Source: Rhizopus arrhizus
Taxonomy: Eukaryota > Mucoromycota > Mucoromycetes > Mucorales > Rhizopodaceae
DNA: 64,000 bases
Assembly: GCA_024220505.1 (NCBI GenBank)
Contig: JAKZZE010000020.1
Span: forward strand, 62,001 to 126,000
Reading direction: 5' to 3'
Under the pieces are notes generated by a model. That model was not told the origin of the DNA, ran no database searches, and was given only the letters and a program-made list of their open reading frames with translations. The position numbers and the translations under genes were made by a program. Below are positions 11,436 through 33,555 of the stretch, piece after piece; position 1 is the first letter of the stretch, and each line of letters begins with the position of its first letter.

Positions 11436-11780
11436 ATGTCAAACACAAATGACTTCAACTCTGCTGCTGCTGGTTCTTCCAGTAGTAATGCCAAAACTTA
11501 TCCTGATAACGCTCGTCGTATGTCAGATGTTTCTACTTTATCTTCAGAGGCAGAGTCCTCTGGAATGACCACTTCCGCAGTTTCTTCTGGTTCTCTTGAG
11601 CCTAGAATCGCAGCCCCATCCATCCACTCTTCCATTGAGGAGTTGGATTCCACCATCATCGGTGCCACCCAAGTTATTCTTAACTTGTCTGTTCGTCTCC
11701 TTTCTACGACTCCTGAGTCAGAGGAAGACAACATGGTGCGCGCTAAGTACGAAGCCTGTTCCAAGGATCTGGAGAGACTA
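11436..11780 (+). pseudogene. Gag N-terminus of element C, cut by a Tc1 insertion
   Basis: The frame starts MSNTNDFNSAAAG; an upstream ATG-like codon at 11334 lies in the LTR and is unlikely to be used. It is Ser-rich at first, then helical and charged up to LERL. The last codon CTA contains the TA target (11779-11780) of the inserted transposon. Reading resumes in the same phase at 13438 (VHTRDLLQ). The uninterrupted element would therefore have had one continuous frame. Confidence 0.85.
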
Positions 11781-12016
11781 CAGTGACTCCCAAAACTGTC
11801 CCAATGTTTTGTAATTCTGTCTTTCACTGTCATTGGTGCTGTTGCTGTTTGCATAAAACATGACTTGTTGTACCTCATTTGAAAGCTACGGTAGCATAGA
11901 TTTAAGTGGTACAAGTTACATTTCAATTGATGTCGCACTGGCGGAGATAAAACATATACAAAACGAGCGGTGCATTGGGACAGTTTTGGGAGCATATTGA
12001 AAAAATCGGAATCTCT
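11781..12016 (+). repeat. Left 236-bp terminal inverted repeat of the Tc1 element
   Basis: Reverse complement of 13200-13435 with no mismatch seen. It carries the 20-bp putative transposase-binding word at both ends, in opposite orientations. Confidence 0.95.
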
Positions 12017-12030
12017 TTATTTATTTATTA

Positions 12031-13179
12031 TTAATAGTCTGTCCAACGTCCTTTGTTCTGAATACACTTTTGTATAAGTTGTGGCATACTTTCTATAACT
12101 TTTTGACACTCTTCCGGCTTCATAAGGTCGTACCAAACCTTAGTCACACGTTCATAAAGCTCGTTCATGCCTTTTGGTGCAGTTTCATAGTCATTAAGTC
12201 TCCTTTTCAACAATGACCACATATTTTCGATAGGGTTTAAGTCTGGAGATTGTGCTGGCCATTGTAAAACAGTATAAGATTGTTTTTGAAGGTACTCCTT
12301 TACTACTTTTGATGTATGCTTAGGGTCGTTGTCATGCTGGAAAATCACCTGGTGACGTTCGAAGCCTAATCTATTGACACCATACTCAATTGTACGCTTC
12401 AGTTCATCCTCCAAAATCTCTTTATACAATTCTTTGTCCATATTACCATTGATTTTGCACATCCAACCGACTCCAGCATAGGTAATAGCACTCCACAACA
12501 TAATACTGCCTCCACCATGTTTAACAGACATCTTCACATGATGGGATTTTAGGCTTTCCCCTGATCGAATCCATGCCCAGATGCGTCCATCCGAATTAAA
12601 TCTATTGATTTTTGTTTCGTCTGACCAAATAACACGTTTCCAGTCATCTACCGTCCAGTCCTTGTGAGCAACGCACCAAGAAAGTCTGTTGCGGATATTC
12701 TTCGCGCTGAGCAATGGCTTCTTTGGCTTCTCAATCGCACCTAAGCCTGCCTTCCGAAGGGCTCTACGAACTGTTTCGACACCTACTTTCGTTCCAATAT
12801 CGTTTTCAAGACATTCTGTAACCTTCACAGCACTTAGAACACGATTTTTGGTGACCTGGTGTACACAGTAACGTTCATCAGCTGCAGACAACACCTTGCG
12901 TCGATCCCCCTTTGATTTTATAACACCAGTGCAATGGGTTTTTCGGAGTCTCCCAACCGTACTCTTGCTTAAACCAGTCAATTCTTCCACCTCCCGAAGC
13001 GACTTACCTTGTTGAAGGAGAGAAACAGCTTGAAATACCATACCTTGGGGGACTTGTTTCATATTGAGATTTAATGAGCGAGTTACAGCAGAGTAGGAGC
13101 TTAAAACTTCAGCAAAATATAATTTGGACATCAGATACGTTTGCGACGCTAATATATGCAGTTTGGTGATTGTATGCAA
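12031..13179 (-). CDS. Tc1-family DD34E transposase
   Basis: Intact 382-residue frame. M40 (13062, MKQVPQGMVF) is a likely alternative start, giving 343 residues, the usual Tc1 size. It has paired helix-turn-helix DNA-binding regions (SLREVEELTGLSKSTVGRL, then a second around AVKVTECLENDIG). The catalytic motifs are VIWSDETKI, FQHDNDPKHTSK and PDLNPIENMW. The second Asp and the Glu are separated by 34 residues, the classic DD34E spacing. The product would cut at TA sites, bind the flanking inverted repeats and move the element by cut-and-paste. No inactivating change is visible. Confidence 0.95.
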   Translation of the reverse strand: MHTITKLHILASQTYLMSKLYFAEVLSSYSAVTRSLNLNMKQVPQGMVFQAVSLLQQGKSLREVEELTGLSKSTVGRLRKTHCTGVIKSKGDRRKVLSAADERYCVHQVTKNRVLSAVKVTECLENDIGTKVGVETVRRALRKAGLGAIEKPKKPLLSAKNIRNRLSWCVAHKDWTVDDWKRVIWSDETKINRFNSDGRIWAWIRSGESLKSHHVKMSVKHGGGSIMLWSAITYAGVGWMCKINGNMDKELYKEILEDELKRTIEYGVNRLGFERHQVIFQHDNDPKHTSKVVKEYLQKQSYTVLQWPAQSPDLNPIENMWSLLKRRLNDYETAPKGMNELYERVTKVWYDLMKPEECQKVIESMPQLIQKCIQNKGRWTDY

Positions 13180-13199
13180 GTTGTGGGTGGATATTTTGT

Positions 13200-13435
13200 A
13201 GAGATTCCGATTTTTTCAATATGCTCCCAAAACTGTCCCAATGCACCGCTCGTTTTGTATATGTTTTATCTCCGCCAGTGCGACATCAATTGAAATGTAA
13301 CTTGTACCACTTAAATCTATGCTACCGTAGCTTTCAAATGAGGTACAACAAGTCATGTTTTATGCAAACAGCAACAGCACCAATGACAGTGAAAGACAGA
13401 ATTACAAAACATTGGGACAGTTTTGGGAGTCACTG
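13200..13435 (+). repeat. Right 236-bp terminal inverted repeat of the Tc1 element
   Basis: Mirror copy of 11781-12016. It begins 20 bases upstream of the longest transposase frame and presumably contains its promoter. Confidence 0.95.
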
Positions 13436-13437
13436 TA

Positions 13438-16400
13438 GTTCATACTAGAGACCTCCTCCAGCGAGCCATGAACCATGCTGTTCCTACCGCTTGGACTGCT
13501 TCACCTAAGGTTGCTCCTGCAGCCTTGAATGTTGTACCTCCAAACCTACCCCTCATGCAGTGGAAGGGTGCGGTCTTTGACCCATCTGCCCCTGTCTCTG
13601 TGGATGTCAAGCACTGCTTGAAAAAATTTCAGGGCGTAATGTTCGCACATGGTCTTGATCTTGATCAGCACTGGCTTCGTCTTCTCCCTCCTTGCTTGTC
13701 ATCGAGTCAACGTACTTGGCTTGATGAGTACCAAGAAAAAGAGGATGTCCATACGTGGAGTCAGTTCAAAAAGGCTTTTACTAGCCATTATGGTGTTGGA
13801 TCGGCTGAAGAAAAAGCCACGTCTACAACGGAGTTGTTACGCATCTCCATGACTGCTGCTGAAACTGTTGACCAGTACGTTGAACGTTTCAACAACCTCC
13901 GTCGCTTGGCACAGATCCAAGATCGCTGCGTCTTGACTCGTTGCTTTCTGATCGGTCTTCAGGCCGATATCTACAAGAAGGTGATCGTGTCCTTAGCCAA
14001 CTGTACGGACGCACAAAAAGAATCGGTCGACTACGTTGTCAAGTTGGCCAAGACCTTGTACCATTCACTGTACAAAGTTCGTAGAGTGGCTAACGCTGCT
14101 CACACTCCTGCTGGCCCTTCAATGGTCAATGACTCTTCTTCTTCTTCTTCTTCTGGTCGAAAGAAATCTTCTGCTTTTGTCTCTGGTTCTGCTGTTCGTT
14201 CTGCACCTTATCCGCAGGCTTCTAGGAAGTATTGCAGATTCCACAAGACCACCACCCATAGCAATGATGAATGTCGTGCTATGAAGAAAGCTTCCTCTTC
14301 TTCTCCGTCTTCGGGTTCAACCCAAGATGATGTCTCCTCTGGTTCTGCTGCCTCTCAGTGGAATCCAAGAAACCAACCTTCCGGTTTGGGACGTCCGTGC
14401 CGCTCTTGTGGTGCTGACAACTGGCGTCCTGGTCACCGATGCAAAGGAAAGGGCCGTTCAACCGGTTCCTTGGCTGACGACTCTGCCGGATCTTCTCACA
14501 TGTTCCGAGCAATGAGTCGATCCCCTGCTTCTTCCTTGCCTTCCGTTGCCTCTTCTGGTAACGATGTTTCTGTTTCTGTTGGTTCTTCTGCCACTGCTGC
14601 TTCGAGTAGTAGTGATGCTTCTCCCGGTCGCAAGACTGATGCTGCTGATCCCGTTGTTCCTGTTCCCGATTCGTCGGATGATATGGACATTGATGTTGCG
14701 GAAGCCCTTACTGTGGCTGAAGCTGCTCAGGCCTGTAAGTACATTACACATCACATCTTTTCTAAAGCGCCTTCAAACACTAATACGCTTTATGTTCCTA
14801 TTATTATAGAGCACATCAAAACATGGGCCATGATTGATACCGGTTCGTCTTTTTCGTGTGTGTCTCCTTCGTTCTGTTCGACACTTGGTTTAGTTCCAAC
14901 ACCTAATCCAGGATCGATCAAATTAGGACATAATAGTTCAAGTACTGTAAGCCGGTTAGGCATAATAAATCTTACTGTTTATTATAACCAAATCCGTTTG
15001 TCATATGAATTTGAAGTGTTTGATTTTAGCAGTGATGTTCCCATTTGTTTAGGACTTGATATTTTGCCTAAACTAAGAATAGGTTTAACAGGATTAGCCA
15101 CTTCTTGGTTAAATTCTAATATTCCTAAAATACCTGATCCAGTTAACCCTGATGATTATAAGCCAAATGAAACTCCTGTTGGCACTATGCAGGAAAGACA
15201 ACGTTTGATGAGCACTATTCAACCTTTGTTAGATGCTAATACGAGTATCCCCATGTCTTCTCATTGTAATTTACCTGGTGCTATCATCACTCTTGATACT
15301 GAACCCAATGCCTTTGCTTATCGAAGACAACCCGATATTGCTATTGCTAATAGAAAGATCATGGAAGACCAAATTCAAACTTGGTTGGATGATTGTGTCA
15401 TTGAACCTGCTCCTTCCAATACTCGCTTCAATAACCCTATTTTTCTTGTTGGAAAAAAGGATGTCAACGGATTATACACTAAGAAAAGAGCAGTTATTGA
15501 TCCACGTCTGCTTAACCAACTTGTAAAGAATGTTGATAGAATGCCTTTACCTCTAATCAGCGATCTTCATCAACGTATGGGTTCTGCTACTATATTCACT
15601 ACCTTCGACATACGAGCATGCTTTCATCGTTTTCTTATCCAAGAATCTGATAGACCCAAAACTGCATTTACTCATCCATTTACTGGTATGCAGTATCAAT
15701 TTCGTCATTGTCCTTTTGGCTTGACAAGTACCGGTAACATTGTACAGCGTGTTCTTACAAATTTGTTCGCAGATCTTCCTTACACTGCACTCTATATTGA
15801 TGATCTATGTGTCTTCAGCTCTGGTGACATGAATCAACATATTGAGTATGTCCGTGAAGTGTTGAAACGTCTTACTGCTGCAAATTTAATCATTAATGTT
15901 GAAAAGACGCATTTTGCACAAAGTTGTGTAAATATTCTCGGATGGACTATTGGTAACAATGGTTCTCTAATCCCTGATCAACGTAAACTGACAAATATAC
16001 ATTCTTGGCCCACACCTAAAACTGGTAGACAAGTCATGAGTTTTCTTGGGTTTGCAAACTATTTCCGTAATAGTTTACCAATGTTTTCTCGCTTGACTGC
16101 TCCACTTGACCGGTTGCGATCTCTTAATTCTTTAAAAGGAATTTGGAATGAAACCCATGAATGCAGTTTTCGTAACATTAAGGATGCCTTAGTGAATGCC
16201 CCAGTCATTCACATCCCTGACCTTAAGTACCCATTCTACGTTGCAACAGATGCTAGTGCTTATGGTATCGGCGGTGTCGTTTATCAAGTCATCGACCAAG
16301 ACATTAAATATAACGCCTTTGCTGCAAGATCTCTTTCCCCTACCGAACGTCGTTATCATACAAACAAACGAGAGCTGTTAGCGATTGTATTCATGTTTGA

Positions 16401-25954: not shown

Positions 25955-26350
25955 TAAATAAGTATCTGTACTACGTACCCATTGTTATATGCGCATAAAA
26001 AAGTAAATTTTAAGAGAAAATGAAATTAATGAACTAGGGGAAAAAAATGATATTCTTTTATATAGCTTTAAGTTTATAATAATAAGATGAGAATATGTTT
26101 ATCCAAGAAAAAAAGAAGTACATGTGTTTATTTGCTGAAGAATATATAATAAAGAATAAATAAAGTAAGATGTCATTCTTTTGCGTTAAATATGATTTTG
26201 TATTTTGTAATTATGAATTGAATTTTTATTATTATGCAAAAAGAAAAGAAAACCAGGCTTTTTTTTTAAGAAAACTAAGTGAATTGAAAACAGTTTCAAT
26301 CCATTTTTACTTGTTCTCTCTCTCTCTCTCTCTTGCTTCCACTTTTATAT
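25955..26350. other. Intergenic region
   Basis: AT-rich, with a CT repeat (about 26317-26332) just before the next start. Nothing else recognised. Confidence 0.5.
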
Positions 26351-26866
26351 ATGGAAACAGATCGATCCAAGTTAGTAGATGATGCCATTTACAAAACAAG
26401 GATACCTAATATCATCATTATTCTATCGTCAATCTATATTTGTTCGTATTCTATTCTGTTAATAAAGATAATCTTTCGTAAACAACAACAAAGAATAGAT
26501 CAAATGGAGAAGCAGCGTCTAAGAGATTATTGGGAAAGGTCAACTATTCAACATCAGTCAAATGATGCTATTGCTGATAATCAAGAAAAGGGTCTCATCG
26601 CTTATCCTTCATCCACTTATCAGCCATCTAATTCATCCATGACCTTGCAGAACACCACTAGTTGTAATAGTAGTAGTAGTAACACTAGTGGCAGCAGCAC
26701 TAGTAGTATTCAGCATGATAATAGGCAATTAGTGAAGTTTTGGTCTAAAAAGAAAACAAGTAAAAGATTGAGTTTGGTATGGCATTGGAGTGTATCCATG
26801 GGTTACTGCGAATATGATCACGGTAAAGAATTAAACGAATTAATTAAAAAGTTGACAAAAGAATAA
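26351..26866 (+). CDS. Small single-pass membrane protein, unknown function
   Basis: The ATG at 26351 (METDRSK) is preferred over one 18 bases upstream because it follows the CT-rich leader directly. That gives 171 residues. One strong hydrophobic segment (IPNIIIILSSIYICSYSILLIKIIF, about residues 17-41) is followed by a basic, helical stretch, then a Ser/Asn/Thr-rich tract (about residues 85-130) and a basic C-terminus. It is probably a tail facing the cytosol, anchored near the N-terminus. I do not recognise the family. It converges with CK2 beta, 12 bases between stops. Confidence 0.6.
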   Translation: METDRSKLVDDAIYKTRIPNIIIILSSIYICSYSILLIKIIFRKQQQRIDQMEKQRLRDYWERSTIQHQSNDAIADNQEKGLIAYPSSTYQPSNSSMTLQNTTSCNSSSSNTSGSSTSSIQHDNRQLVKFWSKKKTSKRLSLVWHWSVSMGYCEYDHGKELNELIKKLTKE

Positions 26867-26878
26867 AGTGCGTCTATA

Positions 26879-27876
26879 TTAAAAAAAGCGTCGAAATAAG
26901 CTATTAAAGCTAGTGGATTCTTTTTGACCTGGTAGACTACTCGTTTCCTTTGCGCTATTGTTATCCACCGCCTGCAATGGAGCTACTGGCTACAAATATA
27001 CAATATTGAGTCTTAATATCATTTGTTTCTATATCCCCCTGTACCTTGTCCAAGTCTTCTTCTTCTTCGTCATCAAATTCAACAAACTCTTCTGATCTCA
27101 TTCGTAACCATTGCATTTGTGGACCTGACCTTGAACTATCATGTACTCGAAATCCAAAGATACGTGGTTGATATATATAAGGCTTGATCTTTGGTAATAA
27201 ATCTGGATATGTTTCAAATAATAAATGAGGAAAGGTTGTACCAAAATGAGCTCCTATTTATTATATTAGCTTCTTTTCCTTTCTCTCTTTTTTTATTACC
27301 ATCAATGGCTTGTAATATGGATGTTGGAGGACAATAAAGATCAAGACAAGAAGGACAATAAAGTCGAACACTTTCTTTTCCAATTTCATCATACCGACCA
27401 CAAGGAATTACTGGACATTTGTAACAATACACCCTTGGACAAACCCCAAAGTGCTCATTTGAATATCTTTGTGCCATTACTCTAAGTCCATTACGGGTGA
27501 GTAGGTAGCGTTGATGAATAAGTCCATAAAGTAAGATGGCATAACGTTCAATCACATTCGGATCTACCCATGTCTTCTTTTCTTGTTCTTCTTGTTCTGT
27601 TTCAATATCTAAAATCATGTCAATTGCTTCCTGATAATAAGGTACAAGAGTTGACAGCCCGGTTAAGTTGAAGTCGTCCTCAATGAATTCCTCAGGTACT
27701 TCAATATAGAATTCATGACCAGCTAATGAACAAAACCAACTTATCCAACTTTGAAGAGAGCTATCTGAATCTTCATCGTCTGCTCTTTACGTAAGTAACC
27801 ATAGTGTTTTTTATTGTTTTGTTTTACCATCATAAAAGAATTCTTCTTCATTTTCTGTCGTTGCTGTTATATTCAT
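26879..27876 (-). CDS. Casein kinase II regulatory subunit beta
   Basis: Four exons: 27876-27828, 27779-27300, 27253-27045 and 26989-26879, giving 282 residues. The core reads SWISWFCSLAGHEFY, LYGLIHQRYLLTRNGL, then the zinc ribbon (FGVCPRVYCYKCPVIPCG ... RLYCPSCLDLY) that makes the beta dimer, and AHFGTTFPHLLF. The acidic loop appears as FDDEEEEDLD near the C-terminus. The subunit stabilises and targets CK2 holoenzyme. The last intron (27044-26990) is optional: reading through it ends at a TAA after GGGG, giving a slightly shorter tail. The upstream gene is divergent, with 312 bases between starts. Confidence 0.93.
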
Positions 27877-28188
27877 CGACAGCAATTGTTATTATTGTTG
27901 CTCAAAGAAAAAAAAAAAGATAAAAAAAAATACTCTAGCTTACATTTTTCACACATAAAAAAGTCCTCTTTTCTATCACTCTTTTTATTCACCCCCTTTA
28001 TTTTTCGTTAGTTGCTAGGATACGGGTTCAATAAACTTAGCTACTTTATCATTGAAACTGTAAGTTTATAAGTATACATTTTATTTGATATATAATGTGA
28101 GTTTCAAATAGAGAGGAGGGGCTTTTTGTACCTTTTTTGTCCGCCTTTCTCTCTCTCTCTCTTTTTTTTTTTTTTTTTAATCAATATC

Positions 28189-29265
28189 ATGGTTGAAAAA
28201 GTAGTTGGCATTGATGTTTCTTGTCAAACTGAATTCAATGAACAAGAATTATCGAACGAAAAGCTAGTCAAATATAGAAAAATGAAAAGAAAATTAGTTA
28301 ATCTTATTCGTGTAAGTTGCAGAAAAACTTTTTTATGAATCATGTACTTACCGCTATAATAGAAAAAAAAAGAACTAAAAGGTTTATTGAATGCTTCTCA
28401 ACGTAGAAAACTCGCTTTATCTGAAAAAAAGAGGTACAACTAAGTAAAGAAAACAATATGCTCATATATTGAATAGTAAAAGTCGCGTCAGAAATACAAC
28501 AGCAACAACAGATGATCCTATGGATATTTCAGAAGACGAAAATGAGGATAAAGAAGAAATAGGAGGAGGTGAGGATGAAGAAGAAGGCGATAGCTCAGAA
28601 GGAGAAGAGGATAATTCAGAAGATGAAGCGTGTAATAAATAAAGCGTAATATAATATTATGAACTAATTGTGAATATAGCAAGGAAGAAACGGCGTAGAT
28701 ATGCTAAAAAGCGACATAGTATTCCAAGAGCGGAAGATGGATCGATCCAATTACCAGTACAAATAGCATCATTAAAAGTAATTGATTTGGGTAGAATTGA
28801 GTATGAACGGCCTTCATTTCATAATGAAAGATATATTTTTCCAATTGGTTATACAGCTGAAAGGTAAGTAGAAGTGGTATGGTCATTACATAATCATAAT
28901 CATTATTATATATAGAACATATATGAGTATGGTTGACCCTTCAAATCAAACAGTTTATACTTGCAAAGTAGAAGATAGTTCTGATGGTCCACTGGTAAAA
29001 TATTCTTTACTCTACGCATTATTTATTTATCAACACATTGTAGTTTACACTTTGGTCTGCTGATGCACCTGATCAATGTCTAAGCGCAAAGACAGCCACA
29101 GGAGTATGGGCTTTGGTTATAAAAAAAGTCAATGAAGTCAGACAAAAGGATTCAAGTAATGCTATTTCTGGACCAGAATATTATGGCTTTTCAAATCCTT
29201 TAGTTCGGGAAATGATTGAAGAATTGCCTAATGTGGATAAATGTACAAAATATAAGAAAAACTAA
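28189..29265 (+). CDS. FYRN/FYRC-domain nuclear protein
   Basis: Six exons (28189-28311, 28363-28433, 28477-28629, 28684-28863, 28916-28994, 29044-29265) join in phase to 275 residues. An N-terminal basic helical segment (LVKYRKMKRKLVNLIR) is followed by a long acidic Glu/Asp run, a basic patch (KKRRRYAKKR), FYRN (GRIEYERPSFHNERYIFPIGY) and FYRC (FTLWSADAPDQC ... GPEYYGFSNPLVREMIEELP). FYR domains are found in trithorax/MLL methyltransferases and in TBRG1. This protein lacks SET and PHD and is closer to the TBRG1 layout. The role is presumably in chromatin; the partner is unknown. A foldback element begins 19 bases after the stop. Confidence 0.88.
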
Positions 29266-29283
29266 AAAAAAAAGTGCTCTGTA

Positions 29284-29588
29284 CGCCTTTTCTCAAAAAA
29301 AACATCGCAGCTGTAGCATTTGCTATGTCACGTTTATGAAAAAACAATGTCGTATCTTTTAGAAAAGTACTATTTTTTAAGAGAATAGTGTCTCATACCG
29401 TACTAACAGTGCCAATTGGCGGTTTTACATAATTCAACTAGCCTGTTCATAGCGAAATTTTCTAGTGTTTCCTAGTTCCTCACTCTAAAATGTCTTGATC
29501 TTTATGAATTTTTTTTTTAACTCATTCTATTCTGAGCTCCATCTTCGCTTATAAATATATATACATATATAATTTAGATTATGATCAT
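29284..29588 (+). repeat. Left 305-bp inverted repeat of the foldback element
   Basis: Reads CGCCTTTTCTCAAAAAAAAC at its outer end. Identical, by eye, to the reverse complement of 30361-30665. Confidence 0.9.
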
Positions 29589-29602
29589 TTCTTACTAAAC
29601 GC

Positions 29603-29721
29603 TGAGCCTTTTTCTCGGATATGCTTGAATATCTATCTAAAGAAAAGAAAATATGCTTAGTAGCAGTCGATTTTGCAGGGTTTACTACAAATCCTAGTAC
29701 TAAAAATTACTGCAGTAAGTG

Positions 29722-29769
<48 letters not shown>

Positions 29770-30211
29770 TGGTCAGAATAAAGCAATTATCTAACCGTCT
29801 TTCATAGAAACAATACGAACATTAACAGAATTATTATTGATAACGTGAAATTCCGATGGTATGGCTTTTGATTACTTGAGAAAATATAGCAAAACCTTTG
29901 CTGGGTTATCGCAATAGCATATTTCAATGCTCTTCATGTGGTCAATTGCTTTGGTTAGCTCAGCTGTAGTAGTTTTATTGTACAATTAGTCATAACTTAT
30001 ATTGTATTTCAAAATCTTATTTCGTTAACAAAGTGCTTATGTTACTTGCCCCATTGCTACAAAATACATCCATTATTCTATACAAAATACTCATTCAATT
30101 TTATTTAATAAAGCAGCAGCCAATTATCAAATATTAGCCTTTCAATCAGATCATTCGTCTACTCATACATTTACTTGTCTAGCCCTCGCTTATCAATTAT
30201 TGTAAGTCCTA
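29603..30211 (+). pseudogene. Exon-like fragments inside the foldback element
   Basis: An ACTAAAC branch-like word and AG acceptor (about 29595-29604) precede a frame reading MLEYLSKEKKICLVAVDFAG (from 29621), which ends at a GTAAGT donor before a pure A-run of about 50. Later come a short frame with CSSCGQ (about 29930-29945) and another reading NKAAANYQILAFQSDHSSTH (about 30108-30167) that ends at TTGTAAGT. The parts look like pieces of a spliced gene without recognisable start or end. I do not know the parent gene. Confidence 0.35.
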
Positions 30212-30360
30212 ATTCTCGTGCGTTTCGTTCAAGCCCGCTCTTGTCCTTTAATATTTGTTTTATCTACGGTTCTAGTGCTTGCCCAATTTTTTATCTCCTC
30301 TCTGGCTTGAAATACAACTCACTACATGGCTCATAATATACTACCTGTTCTTGTGTCATG

Positions 30361-30665
30361 ATGATCATAATCTAAATTATATATGTATATATATTTATAA
30401 GCGAAGATGGAGCTCAGAATAGAATGAGTTAAAAAAAAAATTCATAAAGATCAAGACATTTTAGAGTGAGGAACTAGGAAACACTAGAAAATTTCGCTAT
30501 GAACAGGCTAGTTGAATTATGTAAAACCGCCAATTGGCACTGTTAGTACGGTATGAGACACTATTCTCTTAAAAAATAGTACTTTTCTAAAAGATACGAC
30601 ATTGTTTTTTCATAAACGTGACATAGCAAATGCTACAGCTGCGATGTTTTTTTTGAGAAAAGGCG
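30361..30665 (+). repeat. Right 305-bp inverted repeat of the foldback element
   Basis: Mirror copy of 29284-29588. Its outer end is 111 bp from the bZIP start codon. Confidence 0.9.
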
Positions 30666-30776
30666 TACAACTAAAATAAACTTTTGTTGTGTAAGCAAAT
30701 GATGTCAATGTCAATGCGCTCCTCCTTTATATAAAGCACATTTCGTTTCTTTCTTCTTTTTTATCCTTTTATTTTA

Positions 30777-31124
30777 ATGAACATGGAATATTCTAGAAAG
30801 CGTATGTCTATTGATGCTATTATTGAAAAAGACTTGTTGCCTTTATCACCACCCACTTCTTATTCGAGTCGATCTCCATCACCAGAATATTCAGAGAGAA
30901 AAAGATCAATGTCTGCAGAAGAAAGAAGATATAGAAATAAGCTTGCATCAGCTAAATATCGCGCTAAAAAGCAAGCAAATATGAGAAACATGTCAGATAC
31001 AGTGACTCAATTGATGACAACCAATTATCAGCTTTCTTGTGAACTGGCTAAAATGAAGCAAGAAAATGAAATACTACGTACAATGTACGAAAGAGTTATA
31101 TCACAAAACCAAATGTATTATTAA
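30777..31124 (+). CDS. Small bZIP transcription factor
   Basis: 115 residues, no intron. The basic region is RRYRNKLASAKYRAKKQ (N-x-x-A-S-x-x-Y-R, the fungal bZIP contact pattern), followed by a leucine-zipper-like helix of heptads to the C-terminus (MSDTVTQLMTTNYQLSCELA ... ENEILRTMYERV). The N-terminus is a short Ser/Pro-rich segment with possible phosphorylation sites (SPPTSYSSRSPSPE). There is almost no room for an activation domain, so it may act as a heterodimer partner or repressor. The target is unknown. The foldback element ends 111 bases before the start. Confidence 0.85.
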   Translation: MNMEYSRKRMSIDAIIEKDLLPLSPPTSYSSRSPSPEYSERKRSMSAEERRYRNKLASAKYRAKKQANMRNMSDTVTQLMTTNYQLSCELAKMKQENEILRTMYERVISQNQMYY

Positions 31125-31312
31125 GCTTATTCTTTCACATTAACATCATTATTATATGTAAATACTTTTCTTTTGTAAATCACCTTTTTGTCACGTATAC
31201 ACAAATAATAAAAATCTATTCTAATCCAAATAAAGAAAATACATGTTTTAAACTCTTTCTTTTTTTTTCTATTTTTTATATTCTTTTTTTTTTCTTTTTT
31301 ACTGTGATCAAA

Positions 31313-33069
31313 ATGGGTAGAAAACCTATAACGACAAAAAGTAAAGTGATGAGTTTAGCAATGTCAAGTAAAGAAAGCGATGAGCAAGTGGTGGATGAAA
31401 CTATCTTTCAAGAATTATGTACTGCGGCAAAGGAAGGAGATATTGAAAAAGTAGAAAGTTTAGTGAATCATTTTAATGCACCTATTAATATTGTAGATGA
31501 ATGGCAATGTTCACCTCTTTATTGGGCTTGTAAATAATTACTGCTTAATTTATGATGATTGAAAATTATGATAGGTTTATGTGGTCATTATGCTGTTGTC
31601 AAATTTTTATTAGAAAATGGAGCACAGTGCGACAGGAATACATTTCAAGGGTAAAGGTGATTAGTAAGATTACAAGAGTACTAAATTTTTAAATAGTGAA
31701 AGATGCTTATATGGTGCATTAAACAGTGACATTAGAAACCTGTTGCTAAGTTACAAATTAACCAAAGCAATTGATGAAAATCAACCTTATTTACTATTTT
31801 TATCCAACTTGCTTGAAAATCACAATCATCATGATTTAACCTTTTTAACATTATTGGGTGATAAACAACATGAGTTTCATGTACACAAATTCATTTTAGC
31901 AGCAAGGTCTTCATTCTTTGCAAAAAATTTATTAAATCGTTGGAGAGGACAATCTTGTGTGAAGTTTCAAAAGAACATGATTCATCCAATCTCTTTGTTA
32001 TCCATCTTGCGATATATTTATACAGGCTATGTTGATCATGATTTGGATAAAGATATTGTAGAAAATATGGTTTTTGCTACCAAACACTTGGAACTCACAC
32101 ATTTACATCAATTACTTTTAAAACAAGAAGATGATAATGCCTTGAGATCACATACTAAACAAGAGATTACAATCTTACGTAATGATTTTGAACAATTTTA
32201 TAACGATTTAATCAAATTATCTATTGTTGCTCAACCCAATGACGATCATACATCTTGGAGGATGCTGTCCCGATGGTTAACGGATAAAAGTGACATGAAA
32301 CAACCCGATGCTTTATTTACCGATATTGCCCTCAGATTACACAATAACATCATCTTTCCATGTCACAAAGCTTATTTATGTCGGTCAGAATTCTTCAATA
32401 CGATGCTGAATGGTCCATTTGGTGAACAAGAGGCAGGTTGTGTTACTATTCGATATCCCGACCAAGATCTCGAATTGTCCTTGATTGAAGTATTTGACGT
32501 AGATGCTGATATCTTTGGTCTTTATGTATTACAATTTCTATATACAGACAAGTGCACAATTCCACCTGAGGATGCCTATGATGTTTTAATTGTAGCAGAC
32601 ATGTTATTAATAGATAGACTGAAAGCGATTGCAGCGATTGCAATTACCAATCAAGAAGAGCCAGTGGTTGATATTTATGAACTCATACAAACAGCAATTG
32701 AATTAGAAGTAGAAAGAGTAGAGCAGTATTGTATAAAGTATTTTGCTGATCATTTAGATGAATACATTAAACAACCTGAATTTTTAAATCTTATTAAAAT
32801 GAGTGCTCAATCTATAAAGAGAAGAGAAGAAACAGGTAATGAATTGGTAATGATGATTAATACTGACATCTTTATTAGATTCTATTCCATTTATTGATGA
32901 CTTAAGATACTTTTTAAGTAAAAAATATTTTATTGCCGATGAAGATTTAAATGAGTCAGGAAGAGTGAATGAAGAATATCAAGACACTTGGACAGAAATG
33001 GAATCCTTGTATAATCAAAAATTAGAAATATTGGATCAACTTTTAGAATCATTAGGTTTAGAAGCATAA
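31313..33069 (+). CDS. Ankyrin-repeat and BTB/POZ protein, ABTB1-like
   Basis: Four exons (31313-31529, 31575-31650, 31697-32835, 32879-33069) give 540 residues. Ankyrin repeats occupy about residues 22-97 (LCTAAKEGDIEKVESLV, WQCSPLYWAC, HYAVVKFLLENGA). BTB domain 1 begins at HHDLTFLTLLGDKQHEFHVH, and BTB domain 2 begins at DIALRLHNNIIFPCHKAYL with FDVDADIFGLYVLQFLY. The C-terminus is helical. The order ankyrin-BTB-BTB is that of human ABTB1/BPOZ. BTB proteins of this kind commonly act as Cullin-3 substrate adaptors; that role here is inference. Confidence 0.9.
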
Positions 33070-33499
33070 ACCTTGTTGAATGCATCAAGGAACCTATTTT
33101 AAATAAACCGCAAGATAGTTTCAGAATTATAACAAATGGTGCATCATAGCTTACTTTATTAAATAACAAGAAATCATGCCTGGGATAATTTCCAAAAGTA
33201 CCCAATCCTTTCTCTCATATCGTCATCCTTTGTCTTTTTTGATATGAATTTAATGTGACCAAAAGAAGAAACATGAGTCTATTGCTCTGTCGTTGATCAT
33301 ATAGACAGTAAAAAAGGCTTTTGATGTAGTAAGATGCCCTTTATTTTTATTTTCTAATGTTTTAGGCATAGAATGAAATAGACTTGATTATCTAATAAAG
33401 ATCCTATTCTATCTGTACACAATCCTTTTTTGTCCTTCAGGTAGCTAATGAAATGCTGATTTTGAGTTATAAAGTGTGAATTTTTTTTTTTATTAAATT

Positions 33500-33555
<56 letters not shown>

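Follow-up and report, generated by a model that had tools for sequence, protein, structure and literature searches.

A 1.4-kb unit with identical inverted arms in Rhizopus arrhizus, probably a decayed copy of a dispersed two-gene element family

Between an FYR gene and a bZIP gene of Rhizopus arrhizus lies a 1.4-kb unit with identical inverted arms and a decayed interior. We consider it likely that this unit is an internally deleted, decayed and non-autonomous copy of a dispersed family with the layout arm, B, A, reversed B, arm, and that its arms were made identical at a later time, most likely by conversion. The unit was examined within a window (the whole 64-kb stretch of DNA that was analysed) and against the rest of the genome.

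Results

Exact inverted arms of the unit

The left and right arms were complementary at 309 of 309 bases and were separated by a 772-bp spacer. An earlier reading of the letters alone (the sequence-only reading) had described base-for-base arms of 305 bp, which is the portion inside the outer TGTA/TACA of what turned out to be a maximal exact match of 309 bp. The neighbours, edges and arms of the unit are the following:

29044..29265, plus strand: last exon of the FYR gene, the left neighbour (reading frame; FYRC domain, E 8e-21)
29282..29283, no strand: TA bordering the unit on the left (target-site TA); no other duplication of length 2-12 directly adjoins it
29280..29588, plus strand: left inverted arm (309 bp), complementary to its right counterpart at 100% of positions; outer end TA followed by CGCCTTTTCTC
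29550, plus strand: TATAAA in the left arm
29581-29583, plus strand: ATG near the inner end of the left arm
30361..30669, minus strand: right inverted arm, 309 bp, 100% complementary to the left arm
30399, minus strand: TATAAA in the right arm, upstream of the gene B start
30666..30667, no strand: TA bordering the unit on the right, the counterpart of the TA on the left
30783..31124, plus strand: bZIP gene, the right neighbour (bZIP_2, E 3.1e-9)

A chance origin of the 309-bp match is excluded because the next longest exact inverted pairs in the 64 kb are the 240-bp arms of a Tc1 element (11777-13439), in second place, and a pair of only 36 bp in third. Perfect identity of the arms could also stem from an assembly artefact in the form of a false palindrome, but this is very unlikely, given that the unit is only 1.4 kb long, that the 50.3-Mb genome comes in 41 contigs (which suggests long reads), and that the sequences next to the inner and outer edges are not the same on the two sides.

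The window arm had no DNA-level match to any other locus of the same genome. A 305-bp arm query against the source genome (50,257,186 bases) returned only the two window arms, and a 31-bp arm end at up to three mismatches found no genomic place besides these two, with the uniqueness seen in both queries bounded by the sensitivity of the search. A 16-bp arm end at up to two mismatches yielded 20 matches (two of them the window arms) versus 23 for a reversed control, and hence no excess. Four of the matches in this search read TTTGCGCCTTTTCTCA.

The unit had initially been called a foldback element. Like Foldback elements (FB, Tetris, Galileo), it devotes a large share of its length to inverted arms; unlike them, it has no repeated 10-mer in its 309-bp arm. 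Subrepeats in the arms are the mark of FB elements, and with no tandem subrepeats present the FB type was rejected and the Foldback label is not supported.

Insertion between the FYR and bZIP genes

The distances to the neighbouring genes in the sequence-only reading were right: the FYR stop codon lies at 29263-29265, the element spans 29284..30665 and the first bZIP ATG is at 30777, while the start codon common to the window and its paralogue is the one at 30783. A 113-aa bZIP query was 100% identical over its full length to a Rhizopus arrhizus protein. Searching the genome with the FYR flank revealed a single diverged paralogue on contig C22, with 72% identity. There, too, a bZIP gene comes after an FYR gene, 104 bases separate the stop from the start, and the 1.4-kb unit is absent. 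When window positions 26001-33500 were compared with this C22 locus, neither arm matched there, and the joined window flanks aligned with the paralogue across the junction. The paralogous site without the unit therefore identifies the unit in the window as an insertion, with the junction placed only to about 10 bp because the paralogue is old (72-78% identical). This same site supports an insertion that would postdate the duplication of the FYR-bZIP pair. An ancient whole-genome duplication is reported for Rhizopus in the accessible text of PMC2699053, and the pair formed by the window and C22 loci would fit with such an event.

The outer edges of the unit read TG-TA-CGCC ... GGCG-TA-CA. Of all duplication lengths from 2 to 12 tried at these edges, TA alone adjoined the unit, although the palindromic edge (TGTAC/GTACA) would also allow a duplication of GTAC. 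A Mutator-type (MULE) origin was rejected on this account, as no target-site duplication of 8-11 bp was present.

According to the sequence-only reading, the unit must affect both neighbours. This was only partly right. The 3′ region of the FYR gene must now lie in the element, and its transcript would have to end within the left arm or beyond. On the other flank, a block conserved in the C22 paralogue (30677-30735) and the TATAAA within it (30730) stay on the bZIP side, and the proximal bZIP promoter therefore looks intact. The conserved block also carries TGATGTCA, which we take to resemble a bZIP-binding site (putative).

Remnants of two genes in the interior

The spacer and the inner edge of the right arm contained the following features, for which family HMMs were built from 13 copies of B, nine of A exon 3 and seven of A exon 4:

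29589..29617, plus strand: what is left of intron 2 of gene A, including branch-site-like TTACTAAAC (identified by its place ahead of exon 3 in a comparison with three relatives)
29618..29714, plus strand: gene A exon 3, decayed (family HMM match 29618-29698, i-Evalue 1.7e-11)
29715..29720, plus strand: donor GTAAGT of gene A exon 3 (sequence)
29809..29850, plus strand: weak candidate for the beginning of gene A exon 4 (HMM i-Evalue no better than 1.2, but in a suitable place and orientation)
29845..29994, minus strand: middle part of gene B with stop codons inside (family HMM i-Evalue 1.7e-13)
30061..30328, minus strand: dispersed 250-270-bp repeat within gene B, after about the tenth B codon (edges approximate)
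30339..30368, minus strand: first ten codons of gene B, MIIMTQEQVV (start codon 30366-30368, inside the right arm)

The runner-up scores in the six frames of the window were 0.087 for the exon 3 HMM and 0.9 for the B HMM. The splice-like signals that had been read in the interior are present, namely the branch-site-like motif next to the inner end of the left arm and the GTAAGT donor, while the acceptor of exon 3 reads GG in the window versus AG in the three relatives compared. A run of 46 A (29722-29767) lies right behind this donor.

A profile of B beginnings, made from nine beginnings (seven loci and two proteins) with the window copy and non-aligning beginnings left out, was run over the six frames of the 64 kb, and MIIMTQEQVV was the only ten-residue stretch above a threshold that we had set ourselves, this stretch having already been spotted by eye. 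The B start codon thus lies inside the right arm and, by identity, the same ATG is carried by the left arm, where it is directly abutted by the remnant of A intron 2. Because the left arm holds the B ATG and then switches to A intron 2, a deletion of the left B and of A exons 1-2 is inferred, with its junction presumably at this point.

The description of an exon-like interior without a recognisable transposase was borne out, in that the interior matched the A/B family and yielded no Pfam family above cut-off. Specifically, none of eight interior frames reached the Pfam cut-off (zf-A20, at E 0.012, stayed below it), no transposase was recognised in the reading frames of the unit, and at gathering scores none of the known RNA families matched the window. 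Similar stretches of 10-12 bp, seen by eye, flank the nested repeat and may be its target duplication.

The A/B family elsewhere in the genome

The 37-aa minus-strand frame at 29875-29985 matched 24 other places in the genome at E 4.4e-6 to 0.18 (12 at 0.01 or better and the other 12 above 0.01), bringing gene B to 25 genomic matches with the window included. Those of the loci that were read showed a recurring four-exon gene A together with a small gene B directed toward it. Searching the genome with A exon 2 gave 98 matches at E 0.01 or below, some of which share one locus. The two genes are closely linked, since 18 of the 24 other B matches have an A exon-2 match no more than 1.5 kb away, where about 0.14 would be expected by a rough calculation with all 98 A matches; the count itself omitted the window B and used the 19 A rows on B-bearing contigs plus one unmatchable dummy row (C9:0). 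All but one of the linked B matches (17/18) point at A, with 11 pairs on opposite strands and seven on the same strand. The window copy has its A exon 3 and B HMM matches in the order and orientation of these relatives, with B on the opposite strand and convergent.

Ten A/B loci were chosen from the B matches and fetched, two of them (L070 and L071) because two B copies were already visible. Inverted arms flanked A in four of the ten (L070, L071, L077 and L078), and the layout arm, B, A, reversed B, arm was found in three, the fuller relatives; the remaining six had no long inverted pair around A within the fetched stretch. In L070, L071 and L077 the arms reach inward to a DPTEP-like motif of B, ending at or just after it (around codons 46-49), so that the two B genes share their first half via the arms and differ in their tails. 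Two kinds of tail behind a common first half are what would be expected from a left and a right B. Among recorded proteins (P0001-P0005), the B tails were of two kinds, ...KKKNRGKA-like or ...KFGKDG-like. The arms of L078 measure only about 95-116 bp, and its B lies outside them.

The arms of L070 and L077 share only 35 bp of B coding sequence, no other likeness was found among the arms of the four loci, and the window arm matched none of them. Because the arms of different loci are dissimilar, the window arm is tied to the A/B family only through the B start and the layout. Between the C4 and C37 copies (L068 versus L069), the segment that holds A exon 4 and B changes its orientation with respect to A exons 2-3, as though it had been flipped.

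These results do not bear out the Pack-type gene capture proposed by the sequence-only reading. Exons and splice signals inside inverted arms are what a Pack-type element with captured host-gene exons would hold, but the exons of the unit come from its own dispersed family (98 A and 25 B matches), in which the start of B lies within the arms, and an 8-11-bp target duplication is lacking, making such an element highly improbable. A captured host gene was rejected as well, the interior belonging to the dispersed A/B family.

A-like proteins are on record from Apophysomyces, Benjaminiella, Lichtheimia, Hesseltinella, Circinella and Rhizopus. Those of other Mucorales (P0006-P0022) share 73-94% identity with the C4 copy, measured over 49-100% of the query, and many A copies inside the same genome reach only 35-50% identity with it. 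Based on these identities, which are higher across the Mucorales than within the genome, horizontal transfer or strong constraint is possible.

A predicted serine-recombinase fold in relatives of A

A Mucorales relative of the gene A product was modelled with a serine-recombinase fold, and the fold of the resolvase catalytic domain was recovered in this prediction. Serine recombinases carry a YxRxS nucleophile motif. Nine of ten A exon-2 copies read Y-x-R-K followed by Ser (8) or Thr (1), and the tenth, from L078, is truncated there; this exon is missing from the window copy. Resolvases also have a DRxxR arginine motif, which was absent from all nine A exon-3 copies (9/9), where the sequence reads [GD]xAGL; this would be the site matching DRxxR. 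Neither A nor B pieces matched a Pfam family above cut-off, and searching the sequences of solved structures with A gave nothing convincing (best E 0.94).

IS607 is not known to have long arms. A differs from such serine-recombinase elements in reading [GD]xAGL where resolvases have DRxxR. IS607 is named among serine-recombinase mobile elements in the accessible text of PMC3627910.

Old interior, identical arms

The repeat inside gene B belongs to a dispersed 250-270-bp family (L036-L065, 37 matches listed), possibly a SINE. Its copies were aligned from 26 of 30 fetched loci plus the window (L060, L061, L062 and L064 were omitted as short), and among these 27 the window copy was the most diverged, being 28.7% from the consensus (JC 0.36) with a terminal branch of 0.417, an age that would be inflated if the copy came from an old subfamily. 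Even 0.05 changes per site in each arm would predict about 29 differences over the 309 positions, with a probability of about 6e-14 of finding none, and none was observed. Given the decayed interior and the most diverged repeat next to 0/309 arm differences, it therefore seems that the arms were homogenised after the repeat had inserted, unless this repeat is a very poor clock. Judging from the sequence, they were probably made identical after the interior had decayed. The sequence-only reading had left open whether the arms were created recently or kept identical by conversion; the age of the repeat tips this toward conversion, or toward the re-creation of one arm from the other.

A baseline for arm identity was obtained from Tc1 copies in the same genome, comprising the window element and ten of about 30 other near-complete copies (40 of 192 candidates were scored). 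Within a copy, the arms of the 11 elements differed at 0-4 of 238 positions (with two gap columns besides in one element) and showed no difference at all in four of the 11, and between copies the arms had 0-34 mismatches. Since Tc1 arms are near-perfect too, arm identity alone is ordinary here, and its contrast with a decayed interior is the telling part. The Tc1-like element of the window (11777-13439) holds a 394-aa frame (DDE_3, HTH_Tnp_Tc3_2) between its 240-bp perfect arms, and has inserted next to a retrotransposon frame of 1007 aa, which begins at the right end of the Tc1-like element and comprises gag, protease-like, reverse transcriptase and RNase H parts.

The unit might, on these grounds, be an ordinary non-autonomous Tc1/mariner element (a long-armed MITE), a single copy that has moved only recently; youth alone would then explain the identical arms, and the A/B content would be incidental. 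While the TA edges and the long near-identical Tc1 arms common in this genome (11/11 copies with at most four mismatches in 238) agree with this, identical arms do not follow from cut and paste alone, and the age of the interior shows in its stop codons, its lost acceptor and its nested repeat, the most diverged of 27. Moreover, B starts inside the arm, and the arm end occurs without excess (20 matches versus 23 for the reversed control). We therefore regard such a recent move as unlikely.

Another palindrome around A, 11.8 kb long and centred on an A gene with open exons, occupies C4:1690145-1701907 (L091, L070, L090 and L092). Its arms contain a minisatellite with a 12-bp unit, a 450-aa DDE_3 transposase frame with short inverted ends of its own and, by eye, an ORF1-like frame. 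Outside the minisatellite, these arms differ at 25 of 2712 aligned columns, and 24 of the 25 differences fall in the outermost 250, which would suit either a conversion-tract pattern or a recent inverted duplication that ends in older repeats.

A local inverted duplication through foldback repair might likewise have built the window palindrome around an old A/B fragment, as it maybe did at C4. This would agree with arms that vary in content and length from one A/B locus to another (about 95-116 bp at L078, more than 4 kb at C4), and with the unrelated passengers in the C4 arms. At the paralogous site, however, the whole unit including both arms is missing where one arm would be expected, unless it was lost there, and TA is found at both outer edges; a local duplication is thus quite improbable.

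Discussion

Together, these data favour an inserted and later decayed family copy, for which the following history can be proposed. A dispersed element family of Rhizopus and other Mucorales would consist of a four-exon gene A, whose relatives have a serine-recombinase-like fold, between two copies of B, a small gene with its start and probably its promoter inside each arm. Once the FYR-bZIP pair had been duplicated, one such unit would have entered the interval between its two genes at a TA. A Tc1/mariner-type transposase acting in trans is our best guess for its mobilisation, because TA edges suit such transposases and these are abundant in this genome, but the search for the arm end brought up no shared end. 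One deletion would then have taken the left B and A exons 1-2, another would have joined A exon 4 to the remaining B, and the dispersed repeat would have split this B; the resulting anatomy is seen directly, and the deletions and the order of the three events are our reconstruction. Finally, given the contrast in divergence, one arm would have been copied onto the other after the repeat insertion, most likely by gene conversion.

The unit resembles Tc1/mariner (IS630) elements in its TA target and its inverted arms, the Tc1 arms of about 240 bp being near-identical within copies here. It differs from them in that no transposase was found, in its A/B genes, in the gene start inside its arms, and in an arm end that reads CGCC rather than the CAGT of Tc1. 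In the accessible texts, Tc1/mariner is given as the largest group of transposable elements in Mucorales (PMC7928374), and Tc1-MP1 as known from Rhizopodaceae and Mucoraceae (PMC9977792). As far as the accessible text of PMC3627910 goes, the Mutator-type elements ROr-4, PBl-3 and MCi-4 of Mucorales fungi bear Fanzor1 and have 9-bp target duplications. The unit is like these in being an inverted-repeat element of the same fungi without a transposase of its own, and unlike them in having TA only instead of 9 bp, and short A/B proteins without a Pfam family instead of Fanzor1. Among the papers listed from the openly searchable literature, with several lists limited to the best 8-12, we recognised no description of the A/B gene pair, which does not establish its absence from print.

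A more far-reaching reading, which we hold only tentatively and do not expect to be right, is that the A-centred palindromes represent an unrecognised class of fungal mobile element, in which an A of serine-recombinase fold lies between two B genes started from the arms and in which some machinery maintains or rebuilds the arms. This machinery would perhaps be A itself, or arm-to-arm recombination around an A core, and it might even draw in unrelated passengers, as at C4:1690145-1701907.

For the far more probable decayed family copy, the 1.4-kb unit offers a dated contrast between a decayed interior and arms without one difference, through which arm homogenisation becomes directly testable across strains. 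The dispersed A/B pair, in turn, includes an A with a predicted recombinase-like fold but without all of the catalytic residues that are usual for it. Should A act on DNA, it would be an unusual relative of the serine recombinases in a eukaryote; if it does not, its spread inside inverted arms would still need explaining.
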